Of a stretch of 30,138 nt of DNA, positions 1-30,138 are shown piece by piece. Source of the stretch: Smittium mucronatum (taxonomy: Eukaryota > Kickxellomycota > Harpellomycetes > Harpellales > Legeriomycetaceae); the NCBI GenBank assembly GCA_001953115.1, contig LSSL01000280.1:1-30138 (forward strand), read 5' to 3'. Position 1 is the first letter of the stretch. Each line of letters starts with the position of its first letter. Below the pieces are notes generated by a model, which saw only the letters and a list, made by a program, of their open reading frames with translations, did no database searches and had not been told where the DNA came from. The position numbers and the translations under genes are program-made.

Positions 1-135
1 ATAGCTGTTAGACGCTGAGATCCGTCTGACTGTCGAACGCTGGACTTGTGCACTAGATTATGTCTCAGCTGTGCTAAACGATCGGTTCCTCCTGTTTCTA
101 GATGGTCCTCCTCTGGAATCGCTGTCCTCCGAATC

Positions 136-221
136 GCTGTGCGCTGTCTCCACTACTCCCAACCAAGAATAGTGCAACGCTGTGCGCTGTCTCCACTACT
201 TCCAACCAAAAATAGTACAAC
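136..221. repeat. Tandem duplication, 2 x 43 bp, inside retroposon copy 1
   Basis: Units 136-178 and 179-221 differ at only a few positions. Copies at 17759 and 18441 have a single unit at this place, so the duplication arose in copy 1 or its lineage. A shorter 15-bp period (GAATCGCTGT at 116-125 and 131-140) lies just beside it. Confidence 0.85.
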
Positions 222-2512: not shown

Positions 2513-2700
2513 TATCGTGATTGTGTACCTACAATGATTACCTTGAACCAATGCCCAGTGGGTACGGAGCCGCTAGAGCGACAGATGGGAGTGGGATGAA
2601 TTATTATTATTTTTTCCTTTTATTGTATTTTTTATTTTAGTTTTATTCTAGTATTTAAATATAATAAATAAATTCCCTTTAAAAAATAAAATAAAAGTGT
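2513..2700 (+). mobile_element. Diverged LINE-type 3' tail, copy b, with remnant ORF end
   Basis: The block from CCTTGAACCAATG (2541) through GGGTACGGAGCCG and GACAGATGGGAGTGGGA (to about 2596) matches copy a and copy c. It also matches the 3' end of the decayed LINE near 16620-16665 read on the minus strand, where CTTTAACCAAT and GGGTGGGA appear in the same order. A frame of 28 codons runs from 2513 to the TGA at 2597-2599 and includes LNQCPVG, comparable to the FNQYP end of the LINE frame at 16642. A T-rich then A-rich tail with AATAAA follows. This is probably a 5'-truncated LINE copy with the last codons of ORF2 and the 3' UTR. Confidence 0.5.
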
Positions 2701-16641: not shown

Positions 16642-17758
16642 TCATGGATATTGGTTAAAGAGGATTGAAGGAAAGCTTACTTTGTGAAGTTTAAGATTTA
16701 TTGGGACATTTTTTACAAATAGAAATTTTACCTTATCCAACATGAAATCAAGATCTTCATTATAAGTGTTTAACTGGCCTAAATAATAATTTAAAGCAAT
16801 TTCCATTACAAGCGGTATTTCAATATCACTTACCATTTTTGATTTAAATCAAAATTTTATTAAAAAAATATTTGTAGATTAGAGCAGGACGAACCTTCCT
16901 AAAGTCTCATCCCGCCCCCCATTTTTTTCAGCAGTGTTTAGTTCGAAAGAATGTGGCAGATTGCTTTCAACATATAGAATTTTGAATTATTTAGTATTGA
17001 TAATGTTTGAAATATATATATTTTTATTTGATTGTCATATAAAGGTTCATAAGATATTCTTTCACATTTTCCCAGTGTTCTGAAGACCAAATTTCAATCC
17101 AAAGTTCAGAATTTGAAGATTTAGCAAATTTCTTTTTCTGTATTCTTTAGATATTAGTTTATTAGTGTATTTTTGATAGATTTTTTTTTCCAATCTATTG
17201 TAGTGTTAGTTGTTTCAACTTTTGAATTTTGTACACATAGTATTTTATCCACCATGCACCGCAAATCACTCAGTTGACTATTCTGGCCTTAATGGGTAAC
17301 TTAATATGGTCGTAAGGCCAAGTTTTTAATTTTGATACTTTTGATGTACACGCTCTCGAGTAGCACTAGTTTTTTCAGAAGGCGTCCTTATATACAGTTT
17401 GGATAGGACTCGTTTCATATCAGCAGACTTACTGACTTTGGCAAATAATCTGATGGGTTTGTCGATTTAGATTTAGATTTTTTTGAGTTTGTCTTCGCCC
17501 ATATCAAATTTTTGGCATACTCGACAGCAGATAGGCATCAGACCGAATTAACGGATTTTATTTTTGTACTAACAGGCGTGCCAGACCGCTTATTCCGTTC
17601 ATGACCGATAGTGCAAATATGGCTTTGATTTTTTGTACAATGTTATTTACTTTGAAAATACTAGTATACTATTGGATATATCGATAAGTTAGACCAATTG
17701 AAAATGTTAATATATAAAAATGATAATAAGGCAATAATTTGGATACTGAAATGGTTAA
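16642..17758 (-). pseudogene. LINE ORF2 remnant: region after RT to the C-terminus
   Basis: This continues the same ORF2 left of the insertion. About 17634-17560 gives IKAIFALSVMNGISG then RLLVQK and NPLIRS, comparable to the LINE block L-I-K-x-I-L-x-P-x-x-x-Y-G-x-E-x(n)-P-x-Q-K. About 17460-17330 gives KSADMKRVLSKLYIRTPSEK and TSATRERVHQ. 17362-17234, in another frame, gives SRACTSKVSKLKTW, then IKLPIKARIVN, a stop, and GAWWIKYY, the typical RARA-x-K-x(3)-LKTW and W-x-K blocks. About 17105-17030 has a WSSEHWENVKEYL segment. The last part is an open frame of 64 codons (16836-16642) with IALNYYLGQLNTYNEDLDF, which fits the end of fungal LINE ORF2. At least four frame changes and several stops are present. 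Confidence 0.66.
17743..17758. repeat. Target-site duplication, left copy (16 bp)
   Basis: ATACTGAAATGGTTAA directly precedes the retroposon's first base at 17759 and is repeated exactly at 19049-19064. Confidence 0.85.
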
Positions 17759-17837
17759 CCCCTAAGAGTGAAATACCTTGCCGTGGTTTAGGGGCTTAAT
17801 AGTGTACTTATCGAAGTACACTAGACCAAAATTCCAC
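17759..17837 (+). ncRNA. Candidate HDV-like self-cleaving ribozyme (copy 2)
   Basis: P1 CCCCTAA (17759-17765) pairs with TTAGGGG (17788-17794). J1/2 is GA. P2 GTGAAAT (17768-17774) pairs with ATTCCAC (17831-17837), with one A-C mismatch that copy 1 lacks. P3 ACC/GGT (17775-17777/17785-17787) encloses the 7-nt L3 TTGCCGT. P4 is a perfect 10-bp hairpin (17800-17809/17814-17823) with loop ATCG. J4/2 is GACCAAA (17824-17830), with C17826 the candidate catalytic C. The spacing follows the HDV ribozyme closely. An alternative register has a 6-bp P1 and a 2-bp P1.1 from G17780-C17795 and C17781-G17794. Known roles of such ribozymes are release of the element RNA with a defined 5' end from a larger transcript. 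Activity is not shown. Confidence 0.66.
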
Positions 17838-18154
17838 ACAGCGTTGTACTATTCTTGGTTTGGAGTAGTAGAGACAGTACACAGCGATTTGGAGAACAGC
17901 GATTCCAGAGAAGGACCATCTAGAAACAGGAGGAACCGATTGTTTAGCACAGCTGAGACTTAGTCTAGTGCAAAAGTCCAGCGTTCGACAGTCAGACAGA
18001 TCTCAGCGTCTAACAGCTATTTGTAGGAAAGCCATGTCGATCAACCCCAAGTTTTGGTAGGAGCTTAATTTTATTAATCCTGTTTGAAGTAGGCTCTGAA
18101 TAGGAGCTCAGTAGATTCAGTGAACTATTGTTCATTGACAAAGAGCTTAATTCA
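17780..18154 (+). repeat. 375-bp exact repeat, left of the gap
   Basis: Base for base the same as 18441-18815 as far as I can compare. It ends precisely where the N run begins, while its partner starts precisely where the N run ends. This is the signature of two contigs that overlap but were scaffolded without merging. Confidence 0.9.
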
Positions 18155-18440: not shown

Positions 18441-18815
18441 GCCGTGGTTTAGGGGCTTAATAGTGTACTTATCGAAGTACACTAGACCAAAATTCCACAC
18501 AGCGTTGTACTATTCTTGGTTTGGAGTAGTAGAGACAGTACACAGCGATTTGGAGAACAGCGATTCCAGAGAAGGACCATCTAGAAACAGGAGGAACCGA
18601 TTGTTTAGCACAGCTGAGACTTAGTCTAGTGCAAAAGTCCAGCGTTCGACAGTCAGACAGATCTCAGCGTCTAACAGCTATTTGTAGGAAAGCCATGTCG
18701 ATCAACCCCAAGTTTTGGTAGGAGCTTAATTTTATTAATCCTGTTTGAAGTAGGCTCTGAATAGGAGCTCAGTAGATTCAGTGAACTATTGTTCATTGAC
18801 AAAGAGCTTAATTCA
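18441..18815 (+). repeat. 375-bp exact repeat, right of the gap
   Basis: Partner of 17780-18154. It begins at nucleotide 22 of the retroposon, inside the ribozyme's L3, so it lacks the P1, P2 and P3 5' strands. A true tandem element would have to start mid-ribozyme at exactly the contig edge, which is unlikely. Confidence 0.9.
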
Positions 18816-18861
18816 TGACTGCACGTAACCTCAGTCATCCAGCCTACTTGAAGCAATGCCA

Positions 18862-18871
18862 GGGGGGGGGG
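18862..18871. repeat. Poly(G) tract, 10 nt, inside the retroposon
   Basis: Run of 10 G followed by TCTTTCGG. Confidence 0.95.
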
Positions 18872-18913
18872 TCTTTCGGTTGGTAGATTGAACCCTTTTC
18901 CCGTAGGTACGCA

Positions 18914-18927
18914 GCCGGTAGTCCGGC
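18914..18927 (+). other. Short perfect hairpin in the retroposon 3' region
   Basis: GCCGG-TAGT-CCGGC. The related tails at 2562-2581 (GCCGCTAGAGCG) and 403-414 keep similar wording but weaker pairing. It could be a recognition structure for the reverse transcriptase, but that is inference. Confidence 0.5.
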
Positions 18928-19022
18928 AGAGGAGCTTATTGTAGTTAGGATAATAGTCTTTTCTATACGACTTTTTCTTTTTTTCATAATTTTTAGTATA
19001 GTTTTTAATGACGTTATCTTAC

Positions 19023-19048
19023 AATAAAATTCCGTGATACAAAAAAAA
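19023..19048 (+). terminator. Polyadenylation signal and poly(A) tail of the retroposon
   Basis: AATAAA at 19023-19028, 12 nt of spacer, then A-run 19041-19048 (a ninth A belongs to the target-site duplication). This fixes the element's orientation as plus strand. Confidence 0.75.
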
Positions 19049-19064
19049 ATACTGAAATGGTTAA
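19049..19064. repeat. Target-site duplication, right copy (16 bp)
   Basis: Exact repeat of 17743-17758, here continuing into the older LINE's reverse transcriptase frame. Confidence 0.85.
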
Positions 19065-19560
19065 GGAAGCTAAATGCATTATAGAAAGCTTTCCTGAATT
19101 TTAATTTGTTGTTTTTGATGGTCCCTGATACGTCTAATTTAATATTTAGGATGTACCCCAAATATGATTACTGATTGATATTTGGAATTTTTTGACCTTG
19201 TGATATTGGATATGACGATCAGAGGTCTAAAAAATTCATTACACCTCAGTTGGATGCATTTAAAGTCATTTCCAAGGTGCTCGGCCAACCAAAATGTTAT
19301 TAAATGCTATTTGAATTTCAGTCTTAGATTCGACCAATAAAATGACTTAATCTATAAAAAACAGTCCAATATCCAAGCGGTGAGACTAAAGAAATGTACA
19401 CCTATTATATCCTTGAAAAGATCGTTAATATAGAATTTGGAAGGTGTAGGTGCTGCTTGGTAGCCTTGTCGAAACCCACGCAGGCATCAGTAGGTTCGGA
19501 GAAATAATATCCAATAATAACAGCAGTTTTCCAAAATATATAGGGCGAAAAATATAAATA
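19065..19560 (-). pseudogene. LINE ORF2 remnant: reverse transcriptase palm and thumb
   Basis: Minus-strand segments in three frames chain into one RT. Near 19555-19480 a segment contains KTAVIIGYYFSEPT. At 19477-19401 is GFRQGYQAAPTPSKFYINDL, matching the classic LINE block G-x-RQG-x(2)-SP-x-LF-x(2)-YIND with several substitutions. At about 19368-19287 is LFFID, a stop, then VILLVESKTEIQIAFNNIL, which corresponds to the FADD box with the second Asp replaced by a stop. LNAS(N/K), stop, GVMNF at about 19246-19215 follows, as expected downstream of FADD. SYLGYILNIKLD and KLKFRKAFYNAFSFLNHFS follow down to 19050. Stops and frameshifts make it non-functional. The fragment ends exactly at the target-site duplication and resumes at 17758. 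Confidence 0.8.
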
Positions 19561-19564
19561 TGAA

Positions 19565-19972
19565 TGTTCTACCCAATCCTTATAGTCTTCAGTTCGTGAA
19601 GCGATGCAGTATGAGTCACTATTTTATAAAAAAAACTTTAAAAAATGCAGAATATAACATTAAAAGTTACCCATTACGCTCTATTTATTTAGTGATAATC
19701 CAAAACCTTGGTACAGTATGATATTCCAGATACTTAACACTAAAAATAGAGGCCTAATTATTTCATTATCCAGAAGTTTATCTTTGAGGTTGTTAAATTT
19801 AATATGTAACCCGTTTTTTATTTATTATAATTACAAAAAAATATCTCCCAATAGCTAATTTTTATAATAAAAAATTATGAGAAATTTTATTAGATCAATT
19901 AAAATAACATGTATTGATTTTATTTTGATAATTATCTATAATATTATTTTCTAGAAAATTTTTCTGAAATAA
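19565..19972. other. Spacer between LINE remnant and trypsin pseudogene
   Basis: AT-rich. The first 100 bp are a little richer in G+C and may be further decayed LINE sequence, but I see no motif to prove it. Confidence 0.5.
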
Positions 19973-21015
19973 TCAAAATACTAATAAAAGCCATAAAATT
20001 GTGATAAGGCCAGATAATGGATTATAAATTCCGGTAAACAATGGTTTTGCTGATCTAATAGCATGAGAGACTGCTGAACCATTGAAAGCTGGTCCATTGT
20101 AAACCAAATCATCTACATTTAATTTAGCGCTTGAGACAATCCAATCTATATAATTAATGACGTGTTTATAGTATGTAGCTCCATTTGAGCTACCGCAAAC
20201 GTATTTTTCACCCAATTTCGAATCCGATATTCCAAAGCTAGTTAATCCTACAACTGACATAGGTGAGGTACCAGGATAGGCTAAAGATCCATCTGAGTCA
20301 CCAAAACAAGTAACCTTGCCGTTTGAAATAGGTACACAGATCAAGTTTCCATCATTAGATTCCCAAGTTGGTTTAAGGGAAGAGCAAACTTTCGAGGATG
20401 GAATTTTAAGTGGGACGGATAACAAAACATTTAAAGTAGAACCTGAAATGTTTGACTTCTGACCCCAGCCAGCTGCATCAACAGGAAAGTTTTGATTCAT
20501 TTTATAACTGTAAAACTTTGCATATGAGATGGTATTAGCCCATGTGGATCGTAAATGATTAAGCCTATATCATTTTCTGCTGATTGGGTCGAGTATGCTG
20601 GGTGGGGTCTAGTAGAATACACTCCGTAAAAGTTTGGATTATTTTCTATGTTATAGATGTTTCCAACGGATATGTACATCGATGAAGGTGGGGTTCTTAT
20701 CACTTCAGAATAAAATAAACAGTGTGCTGCAGTCATTACCACACCTTCGCCTATTAATGAGCCGGTACATAAGTAGCTATCATCATAAAGATCTTTAAAG
20801 ATGAAAGTAGCGTAGGGAAAATCACTAAAACTGGCAACTGCTCCATCGATTATTTTGAAATTCGATGCCAGCTTCTGATTAAAGCGAATTATTAAATCCA
20901 AAAATCTGGTTGAATTATACTGATTTGCCTTTGAGAAACCTATTATCAAAAATAATGATACAACTTGTAGAATATTAAAATTTATATTAAATTCAATAAA
21001 TTGATTATAGTTCAA
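19973..21015 (-). pseudogene. Trypsin-like serine protease (S1 family) paralogue, frameshifted
   Basis: Two adjoining minus-strand frames (21015-20497 and 20500-19973) align end to end with the intact protease at 25449-26534. They share the GFSKAN motif after the signal peptide, FKIIDG activation site, TAAHC (His98), NDIGLIIYD (Asp149) and CFGDS (Ser at residue 69 of the second frame). A single-base deletion near 20537-20543 breaks the frame: restoring it gives an alignable segment where the first frame instead ends in a short unrelated tail. Other damage: the ancestral start codon is ATA (complement of 20983-20985), leaving an in-frame ATG ten codons upstream. The position equivalent to Asp189, which sets trypsin specificity, is Val. 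The Gly226 equivalent is Thr. GDSGGP has become GDSDGS. The C-terminus is still hydrophobic. It is probably a dead tandem-type duplicate. A sequencing error could explain the frameshift alone, but not all the lost key residues. Confidence 0.85.
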
Positions 21016-25448: not shown

Positions 25449-26534
25449 TTAATATAAATACATGATAGATAATACCAAAGCTGCTTGTGAGATAAAGTGG
25501 TATAAAAGGCAAATTTTCGATGACTTAGCTGCAAAAGAAGTAGAAGAGTTTTTTGTAGAATTTTCAACACTCTTTGAAGAGCTAAATGCAGCATAACCAT
25601 ATGGATAATTTAGTGAACCGTTTGCAGGCTGTTCCATGTATATTAAACTATCCTTATTTAATTTAGTACTAGAAACAATCCAATCAATGTAATTAATAAT
25701 ATGAGTATAGTATCCCGTACCATTTGAGCTACCACATTGGTGTTTTACACCAGACATGGGATCAGATGACAAGTTCACACCAAAACTGGTCAATCCTATG
25801 ATTGGCATTGGGGATACGCCGGAGAAAACTAATGGTCCTCCGGAATCGCCAAAGCAAGTATCCTGACCATTCACAACAGCTGTGCAAATAAGACTGCCAT
25901 TATTGGATTTCCAAAGGGGGTAAAGGTTAGAGCATATTTTTAAGGATGATATTTGGAGAGGAACAGATAATAATACGTCTGAATTTGAGCCAGCTATATT
26001 TGATGTGGCTCCCCATCCAGCAGTCATAACCGGAAGATTGTCAGTGACATCAGAACTATAAATTTTTGCACAAGGAATAGAATCAGCGCCAACTGGATCG
26101 TACGTGATTATCGCGATGTCATTTGCTAGCGTATCAGGCGAATAAGCTGGATGTGGCATGGTATTTAGCACTTCATAAACGTTTGGATTATCAGCTGCAT
26201 TATTTAAACTTCCTACGGACACATACATTGAAGATGGAGGAGTTCTTTCGTTTGAAGAGTAAAACATACAGTGAGCAGCAGTAATAATTACCCCTTCGCT
26301 AATCAATGAGCCAGAGCAGAAGTAGCTATTTTTGCCAAGATCTGCATAGATAAAAACAGCATAGGGAAAATCATCTAAATTCGCAGCCACCCCATTGATT
26401 ATTTTGAAAGAATTCGATGATTTCTGATTTAAACGGCTAATAAAATTGGTCAGATTAGTATATTTTTGATGATTTGCTTTTGAGAATCCGATTTTTATGA
26501 GGAAAAATAGAAATATTAGAATATTAAACTTCAT
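25449..26534 (-). CDS. Secreted trypsin-like serine protease (S1 family), possibly GPI-anchored
   Basis: 361 residues from the ATG at 26534 to TAA, intronless. Residues 1-19 form a signal peptide ending in GFSKA. A short propeptide ends at Lys44, followed by IINGV (45-49), the zymogen activation site, suggesting tryptic or self activation. The catalytic triad is complete: His88 in TAAHC, Asp139 in NDIAIITYD and Ser231 in GDSGGP. Asp225, six residues before the Ser, is the Asp189 equivalent, and Gly252 and Gly274 correspond to Gly216 and Gly226, so cleavage after Lys or Arg is expected. Likely disulfides are Cys73-Cys89, Cys201-Cys217 and Cys227-Cys267, leaving Cys155 unpaired. After the protease domain (to about 290) comes a Ser/Asn-rich stretch (about 317-341) and a hydrophobic C-terminus (about 342-361), which looks like a GPI-anchor signal. 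That would tether the enzyme to the cell surface or wall. The alternative is a plain membrane tail. The start is supported by the signal peptide and by alignment with the paralogue at 19973-21015. The natural substrate is unknown. Confidence 0.95.
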   Translation of the reverse strand: MKFNILIFLFFLIKIGFSKANHQKYTNLTNFISRLNQKSSNSFKIINGVAANLDDFPYAVFIYADLGKNSYFCSGSLISEGVIITAAHCMFYSSNERTPPSSMYVSVGSLNNAADNPNVYEVLNTMPHPAYSPDTLANDIAIITYDPVGADSIPCAKIYSSDVTDNLPVMTAGWGATSNIAGSNSDVLLSVPLQISSLKICSNLYPLWKSNNGSLICTAVVNGQDTCFGDSGGPLVFSGVSPMPIIGLTSFGVNLSSDPMSGVKHQCGSSNGTGYYTHIINYIDWIVSSTKLNKDSLIYMEQPANGSLNYPYGYAAFSSSKSVENSTKNSSTSFAAKSSKICLLYHFISQAALVLSIMYLY

Positions 26535-28541: not shown

Positions 28542-29100
28542 GTTTCATTTAATATATAAATCTAAAGAAAAAATAAATAAAGATGATGAAGAAAAAAATA
28601 TTCAAAGATGAAAAGAATGTCCTCATAACCCTCTAACATACTCTAGTACGAGATTAACATTTTTGGTAAAACAAAAATGTCTCTTTCGTCAAAAAATTCA
28701 AATAAATTTTAGCAAACAGGATCGATTGATCCGTTTTTTTGAAGTTGTAAGGCACTTTAGTTGTTAAATTGAAGATTATTCATTTGAAACATAAAGTTTT
28801 AAAAGATCGAAATCCCTCTTAAAAAGGTTGAGAGGGGGGGGGGGTAGAAACCATCGGAGTAAGATTGATTTAAAGATAAAACTTGCTTATTTATTTTGAA
28901 TTCTCAATTCGAGATTAAGATATTTAGGTTATAGGTACTATAAAAATTTCTGCATTAGAAAGCGCTGTTTTACTAAAAATAAAGAATTAATTGGATTGAA
29001 TTTATATTCCATCATCTTATGAATTCCTGGCACTTCCTAAAATAAAAGTATCGAATTAAAATGCATTAAATTATACAATAGAAAAAGAACACAGTTTTTC
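28542..29100. other. AT-rich non-coding DNA
   Basis: No gene seen. The stretch directly right of 28541 could be more LINE debris. Contains the G11 run. Confidence 0.5.
28834..28844. repeat. Poly(G) tract, 11 nt
   Basis: Uninterrupted run of 11 G, preceded by GAGA. Confidence 0.95.
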
Positions 29101-29262
29101 TCGAATCTTGCTTAATTCTTCATGCTATTCTATGCAGGCAATTTCAAAAAAATATGTTTCTGCTTATTTTACTCGAATCTTGCTTAATTTTTCTTGCTAT
29201 TCTATGCAGGCAATTTCAAAAAAATTCGTTTCTGCATATTTTACTCGAATTTTGATTAATTT
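29101..29262 (+). repeat. 72-bp tandem repeat, two full units and a partial third
   Basis: Units 29101-29172 and 29173-29244 differ at few bases, and the third breaks off near 29262. The period is a multiple of three, so an open plus-strand frame (about 29108-29347, no ATG start) reads as a 24-residue repeat with CYSMQAISKK in each unit. Each unit also carries a splice-acceptor-like word, TGCTATTCTATGCAG. I do not recognise the protein. It may be a non-coding minisatellite or an exon fragment. Confidence 0.75.
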
Positions 29263-30099: not shown

Positions 30100-30138
30100 C
30101 CCCTAAGAGTGAAATACCTTGCCGTGGTTTAGGGGCTT
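30100..30138 (+). mobile_element. Ribozyme-headed retroposon, copy 3 (first 39 bases, leaves the window)
   Basis: Identical to 17759-17797: P1, P2 5' strand, P3 with L3, and P1' are all present, and P4, J4/2 and P2' lie beyond the window. It begins at the same first base as copy 2 after a different flank (GAGCAT), so the shared start is a property of the element and not of the insertion site. Confidence 0.85.

Follow-up and report, generated by a model that had tools for sequence, protein, structure and literature searches.

A predicted hepatitis delta virus-like ribozyme at the fixed 5' end of a dispersed SINE-like retroposon in Smittium mucronatum

The 5' head and the retroposon that carries it

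Contig LSSL01000280.1 of Smittium mucronatum (assembly GCA_001953115.1) was analyzed over positions 1 to 30,138, and this stretch of 30,138 nucleotides (nt) is herein referred to as the window. It contains copies of a short repeat of this AT-rich genome, and the locus raises the question of why these copies begin at the same base and what part is played by their first 79 nt, which can be drawn as a hepatitis delta virus (HDV) ribozyme. Our analysis gives good reason to see in these 79 nt a self-cleaving ribozyme of the HDV class, predicted from the sequence, which forms the 5' end of a non-coding retroposon of about 621 nt dependent on a long interspersed nuclear element (LINE). Self-cutting by such a ribozyme would explain the same clean front end of the copies.

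In the element numbering, nt 1 is the C at position 17759, and the ribozyme head comprises nt 1-79 (17759-17837). This copy, named copy 2, is located on the plus strand. Copy 1 is located on the minus strand (305-1, head at 305-227) and is cut by the contig end, as is copy 3, recognized by sequence match, of which the first 39 nt are present (30100-30138, plus strand). Both contig ends fall within retroposon copies.

The helices of copy 2 follow the order P1-P2-P3-P3'-P1'-P4-P2', the nested double pseudoknot of the HDV class. P1 (17759-17765/17788-17794) is paired at 7/7 positions and is followed by a J1/2 of 2 nt and by P2 (17768-17774/17831-17837), in which 6/7 positions are paired and A17771 stands opposite C17834. 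P3 (17775-17777/17785-17787) is paired at 3/3 positions, the 7-nt L3 (17778-17784) reads UUGCCGU, and P4 (17800-17809/17814-17823) is paired at 10/10 positions with the loop ATCG. J4/2 reads GACCAAA, that is, C-N-A-A plus an extra A, and includes the presumed catalytic C (C68, position 17826), assigned by its position in the sequence and its invariance in alignments. The covariance model R1, described below, scores this head at 113.3 bits. The HDV double pseudoknot proposed by the first-pass annotation is therefore retained as to its helices, spacing and C-N-A-A, but the P2 of 7 bp was overstated for copy 2. Copy 1 (R1, 115.7 bits) keeps every helix, as had been proposed, with a U2-G35 wobble in P1, a TTCG loop in P4, a P2 paired at 7/7 positions, and a J4/2 (GACTAAA) differing at the N position.

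By HDV numbering, U20 and G25 occupy the positions of the L3 U and G of HDV ribozymes, which would form the reverse wobble. The P1.1 helix of HDV ribozymes has two pairs. Here it has a single Watson-Crick pair, G22-C37, and a second pair, C23-G36, is possible if P1 is 6 bp long, so the caveat on P1.1 made at first reading holds. The L3 G has a role in HDV-like ribozymes (PMC3774820). The C at nt 1, listed as another caveat, is indeed present. It is less of a problem than had been assumed, because C-G is the typical pair at the cleavage site of fungal HDV variants, for which cleavage was shown with constructs from two species (PMC5640933).

A relaxed HDV descriptor that still requires full pairing (P1 of 7 bp, P2 of 5-8 bp, P3 of 3 bp, L3 of 5-10 nt, P4 of at least 5 bp, and C-N-R-A before P2') accepts copy 1, and at nt 1 it accepts 33 of 57 aligned copies. 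Chance fits occur at a rate of 2.6e-5 per position (281 in 10,985,536 positions of the dinucleotide-shuffled window), and only one remains in the same positions when P2 of at least 7 bp and P4 of at least 10 bp are required. Mononucleotide shuffles of the 85-nt head of another copy, L010, gave 1 fit at nt 1 in 4,586,130. A whole shuffled 30-kb window contains about 1.5 chance fits (306 in 203 shuffles), and therefore a fold somewhere in 30 kb means little; it is the location at nt 1 of a repeat that gives the observation its weight.

DNA searches were carried out in the organism's own genome (73.8 Mb in 2957 contigs) using the first 396 nt of the element (40 of 1882 first-look candidates scored) and its first 92 nt (40 of 1241). 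The first 396 nt of copy 2 (17759-18154, plus strand) precede an assembly gap, past which the element continues (18441-19040, plus strand). The 375 nt at 18441-18815 repeat those at 17780-18154 with 100% identity on the other side of the 286-N gap; other copies matched are 90-93% identical. The arrangement of element, N gap, and element again was also found in loci L015, L025, and L054 and, judging from coordinates, in L035 and L048, and the repeat across the gap is probably a scaffolding artefact at repeats.

The length of the element is about 621 nt (396 + 225 nt flanking the assembly gap of the window), and its longest sense-strand open stretch has 43 codons (L010). An AATAAA signal (19023-19028, plus strand) is located 18 nt before the A tail (19041-19049, plus strand). 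The insertion is framed by a target-site duplication: the left copy (17744-17758, plus strand), TACTGAAATGGTTAA, directly abuts C1, and the right copy (19050-19064, plus strand), TACTGAAATGGTTAA, is identical to it. Being short and non-coding, with an A tail, duplications and a LINE-like 3' end, the element has the features of a non-autonomous retroposon of the non-long terminal repeat (non-LTR) type.

The first base is the same C in 55 of 56 genomic copies with a 5' end, the remaining one (L029) being one C short. These copies represent about 53 sites, because three pairs of loci share flanks by eye (L019/L020, L038/L042, and L041/L045); loci L002, L031, and L032, which repeat loci already included, were left out. 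Copies truncated at the 5' end are under-counted by queries that begin at nt 1, and some are present in flanks, for example nt 247-623 in L004. Of 22 copies in which both ends could be placed, 9 have target-site duplications of 10-16 bp (score of at least 9), compared with 5 of 462 controls, in which the 5' flank of one copy was matched with the 3' flank of another. Among the rest, L051 has a weaker duplication (9/10 bases), five copies have no readable 3' flank, and seven have no duplication. The copies thus bear out the first-pass annotation, which placed an HDV-like fold at the fixed 5' end of a short retroposon, and show this retroposon to be dispersed. A 27-nt block of the ribozyme (nt 57-83) was found at 323 genomic places, some perhaps doubled by assembly. 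The family is apparently new, as had been supposed: no description of it was found in literature searches confined to an open-licence library. Additionally, copy 1 contains a 43-nt tandem duplication (window positions 135-220, 93% identical).

Conservation and compensatory changes

The young family was aligned in 57 rows, 46 of them distinct (alignment A1). For the 27 pairs defined, 97.4% of cells are paired in the distinct rows. The commonest head, present in 7 of 57 rows, has all 27 pairs as well as C68, U20, and G25. RNAalifold recovers P3 together with 6 pairs of P1 and 7 of P4, being unable to show P2 beside P1. C68 is kept in all 57 rows. Genome-wide, 230 of the 27-nt blocks have both G66 and C68; C68 is changed in 9 of 239 and G66 in 84 of 314. 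Thus, C68 varies far less than G66, two bases away, a comparison against which it must be counted that G66 was already known to be variable in A1 when it was picked and that the copies are related. The J4/2 C expected at first reading is therefore present in all aligned copies, but C-less copies exist among the blocks. N69 of C-N-A-A has C and T as subfamily alleles, and in 28 copies chosen on 396 nt it is the only variant within nt 1-79 common to at least 4 copies. In this sample, the mean difference is 2.76% in nt 1-79 vs. 3.28% in nt 80-396, with 1 vs. 11 shared variants, numbers too few to claim constraint.

Older relatives were found with the covariance model R1, built from P2, P3, and P4 and run on 61 sources. 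Two divergent heads were detected, L089:4521-4440 (63.1 bits) and L006:1220-1134 (26.2 bits). When the L006 element served as a DNA query, 39 other places were matched (66-76% identity over various stretches), of which three, chosen by DNA similarity and not by fold, were readable near the 5' end. Two of these, L096 and L097, carry the head (R1, 27.7 and 26.4 bits); the third, L095 (C2296), is without the 5' block and was excluded. Relatives of L089 proved to be young-family copies at 77-80%. R1 matches at L043:754-801 (E 0.15), L078:3246-3304 (E 4.2), and L091:404-447 (E 7), as well as reverse-strand matches to P4 only (E 0.99 to 6.1), were attributed to chance or to palindromes and set aside.

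The young head, window copy 1, L089, L006, L096, and L097 were aligned with MAFFT without fitting to the structure (alignment A2, six rows). C68 (6/6 rows), A70-A72, U20, U21, C37, and U38 are invariant, and in L3, U20 is found in 5/5 and G25 in 4/5 kinds of head. In six pairs, both partners have changed and pairing is retained. Four of these belong to P4 (45-64, 48-61, 50-59, and 51-58, changing from G-C to A-U, U-A to C-G, C-G to U-A, and U-A to C-G), and two belong to P1, both changing from C-G to U-A (1-36 in L006 and 2-35 in L089). Double-change cells number 9 vs. 4.7 in shuffled alignments, a count reached by 2 of 500 shuffles, with 2 to 5 in slid versions of the structure. The covariation score was reached by 6 of 500 shuffles, and 81.3% of cells are paired vs. 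78.0% shuffled (3 of 500) and 28.8-48.8% in slid versions. P4 folded alone beats mononucleotide shuffles in two young copies (2 and 5 of 2000 as low), in L006 (27), and in L089 (70), the last two being slightly favoured because P4 was part of the model that detected them. Thus, the compensatory changes sought since the first reading appear in P4 and P1 once the four older copies are added, but there are none in the young family and none in P2.

Explanations for the fixed 5' end

A number of results weigh against a ribozyme. The descriptor rejects 24 of 57 aligned copies at nt 1, copy 2 itself, because of its single P2 mismatch, and all four older heads (L089, L006, L096, and L097). The search with the Rfam model RF00094 (HDV_ribozyme), recommended in the first-pass annotation, gave no match in the window (E ≤ 5), in L010, L096, L097, or L006 (E ≤ 10), or in the genome (E ≤ 10, 68 candidates scored). 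This miss is weighed lightly, because fungal variants are also said to break earlier search criteria (PMC5640933). In A1, no pair shows a double change and covariation scores are not above shuffles, which neither supports nor refutes the fold, since dead copies decay independently. The P1' change G35A is accompanied by the compensating C2U in 2 places and stands uncompensated in 11, and many copies decay. In A2, the count of six double-change pairs was reached by 52 of 500 shuffles and that of further pair types (14) by 493 of 500; P2 and P3 have no double changes, with P2 paired in 73.2% of cells. P4 alone is no better than shuffles in L096 (405 of 2000 as low) or L097 (1012 of 2000), and the sole sure P1.1 pair, G22-C37, is lost in 2/5 kinds of head (L006 and L096).

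The alternative that survives best, and which we nevertheless consider improbable, is that the conserved 5' block acts as an internal promoter or binds a protein, the fixed 5' end being a transcription start and the fold incidental or a by-product. A fixed start site also yields a fixed 5' end. Judged by the box consensus, an A-box-like TGGTTTAGGGG is located at nt 26 of L010, where A-box-like sites also occur at nt 187 and 354. Moreover, the Pr77 hallmark of trypanosomatids is both promoter and ribozyme (PMC4035085), and both may hold here. A promoter leaves unexplained, however, the pairing-preserving changes in P4 and P1 and a 10-bp hairpin with C-N-A-A in HDV order at nt 1. L010 has no strict B box and contains runs of at least four T at nt 50 and from nt 311, which argues against full-length transcription by RNA polymerase III, and no tRNA, 5S, or 7SL match was found with Rfam in the window or in L010, L096, L097, and L006. 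As the term short interspersed nuclear element (SINE) in the strict sense needs transcription by this polymerase, the element is called SINE-like unless such transcription is shown.

It is considerably less probable that the fold arose by coincidence, in a repeat whose conserved 5' end is ordinary and not catalytic. The chance fits expected in any shuffled window, the weak P1.1, the lack of an Rfam match and of young-family covariation, and the rejection of copy 2 all agree with coincidence. On the other hand, the chance rate cited above holds for one preset position and falls to 1 in 11.0 million under the stricter requirements for P2 and P4, and the double changes and retained core shared with older relatives are not expected from coincidence. 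That the ribozyme was once active and is now dead or vestigial in a young family spreading otherwise, which the one certain P1.1 pair and the copies rejected by the descriptor would allow, is very unlikely given the intact commonest head and the exact 5' ends.

The LINE-like 3' end, related systems, and neighbouring sequences

In L026, a stretch of 149 nt located near the retroposon matches sequences downstream of a reverse-transcriptase match in L069, L071, L075, and L088, and in L075 it includes both the close of an open frame (...PLNQCPVCTEPLERQMGVE, stop) and the 3' untranslated region. The same stretch also matches the window, several flanks of retroposon loci, L064, L077, and L083, like a repeat. 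The tail of the retroposon itself, compared in L026, shares 70% identity with this stretch over 104 columns and contains the hairpin GCCGG-TAGT-CCGGC (18914-18927, plus strand), within the part common to LINE 3' ends; the counterpart in the L026 stretch is GCUGC-UAGA-GCGGC. Because of this resemblance, including the hairpin, the 3' end of the retroposon looks LINE-derived. No such ribozyme was found at two 5' ends of the related LINE (L093 and L094, alignable from 232 and 269), which is not necessarily the partner subfamily. Pfam detected RVT_1 in the L069 piece of the LINE and nothing convincing in the endonuclease-side piece or the ORF1-side piece.

If the head is a ribozyme, a copy would be transcribed within a longer RNA started outside the element. 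The ribozyme would fold and cut immediately 5' of C1, so that a 5'-OH would mark the precise end of the element, as the fold and the fixed end suggest, and the RNA would end at the poly(A) signal and tail. A LINE reverse transcriptase may then recognize the LINE-like 3' tail and/or the poly(A), and target-primed reverse transcription would insert the copy between duplications of 10-16 bp with the ribozyme again at its 5' edge. The copy would need no 5' promoter of its own, because it carries its own 5' processing signal. Cleavage, co-transcription, and use of the LINE protein are inferred. A bolder version, which we put forward tentatively and hold to be possible rather than probable, is that of a long-lived lineage whose HDV ribozyme does not come from the partner LINE. 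Head and borrowed LINE tail would together make a parasite without its own 5' promoter that could be released from any host transcript around its insertion site, and that would have lived in this way since before the split of families now about 67-70% identical to one another.

The kind of element is already known. NARTc/NARTco and SIDER of trypanosomatids, with the Pr77 HDV-like ribozyme, likewise have a partner LINE in the genome (PMC4035085). A C1-A39 mismatch named in that paper implies that Pr77 also has C at nt 1. According to their description, trypanosomatid LINEs (L1Tc/ingi) share the 5' hallmark (PMC4035085), whereas the two LINE 5' ends readable here are without it. The R2/R1 hybrid short internally deleted elements (SIDEs) of Drosophila are also short, have a ribozyme head and the 3' end of a different LINE, and show target-site duplications. 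However, they are located in 28S genes and take their head from R2 (PMC3414825), while insertion sites here are dispersed. Fungal HDV variants resemble the head in their C-G pair at the cleavage site and differ in that their P4 contains a loop E and their P2 and P3 are separated by an extra nucleotide (PMC5640933), P4 being a plain hairpin here and P2 abutting P3. The main text of that paper uses neither the word SINE nor the word retrotransposon. R2 ribozymes share the HDV-like fold at the 5' end, the catalytic C, and the conserved L3 G, but R2 is an autonomous rDNA-specific LINE, and the silkmoth J1/2 loop has 216-498 nt (PMC3774820) instead of 2.

If the head cleaves, a high-copy ribozyme family has been missed by the Rfam HDV model. 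The prediction, if true, would mean that a dispersed SINE-like element makes use of a ribozyme head, with two LINE relatives whose readable 5' ends are without a ribozyme. A direct test is possible with hundreds of copies, two N69 subfamily alleles, and natural C68 changes.

Fragments of the same LINE clade were found antisense beside copy 2 (window positions 19048-19637 and 17422-17588, minus strand), with protein mostly 50-62% and in one piece 26% identical. As they are located on both flanks, an old LINE copy may have been the insertion site of the retroposon. A LINE-type 3' tail at 2541-2684 (plus strand), 74% identical to the L026 tail, is perhaps a short 5'-truncated LINE copy. The genome has both LTR-type and non-LTR reverse transcriptases. 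In L087 (G000:C2602), a non-LTR reverse transcriptase has an uninterrupted frame of 1002 codons, with the locus including only about 50 nt upstream of the frame. RVT_1 matches with open frames of 984-1008 codons, not necessarily of one family, were found in contigs C217, C1118, C614, C2254, and C2122. These long-frame reverse transcriptases are possibly recent copies.

Additionally, trypsin-type serine protease genes (Pfam: PF00089) are located in the window at 25449-26534 and 19973-21015 (minus strand), the second in two open frames, and two 72-nt tandem copies, 92% identical, were found at 29095-29238.
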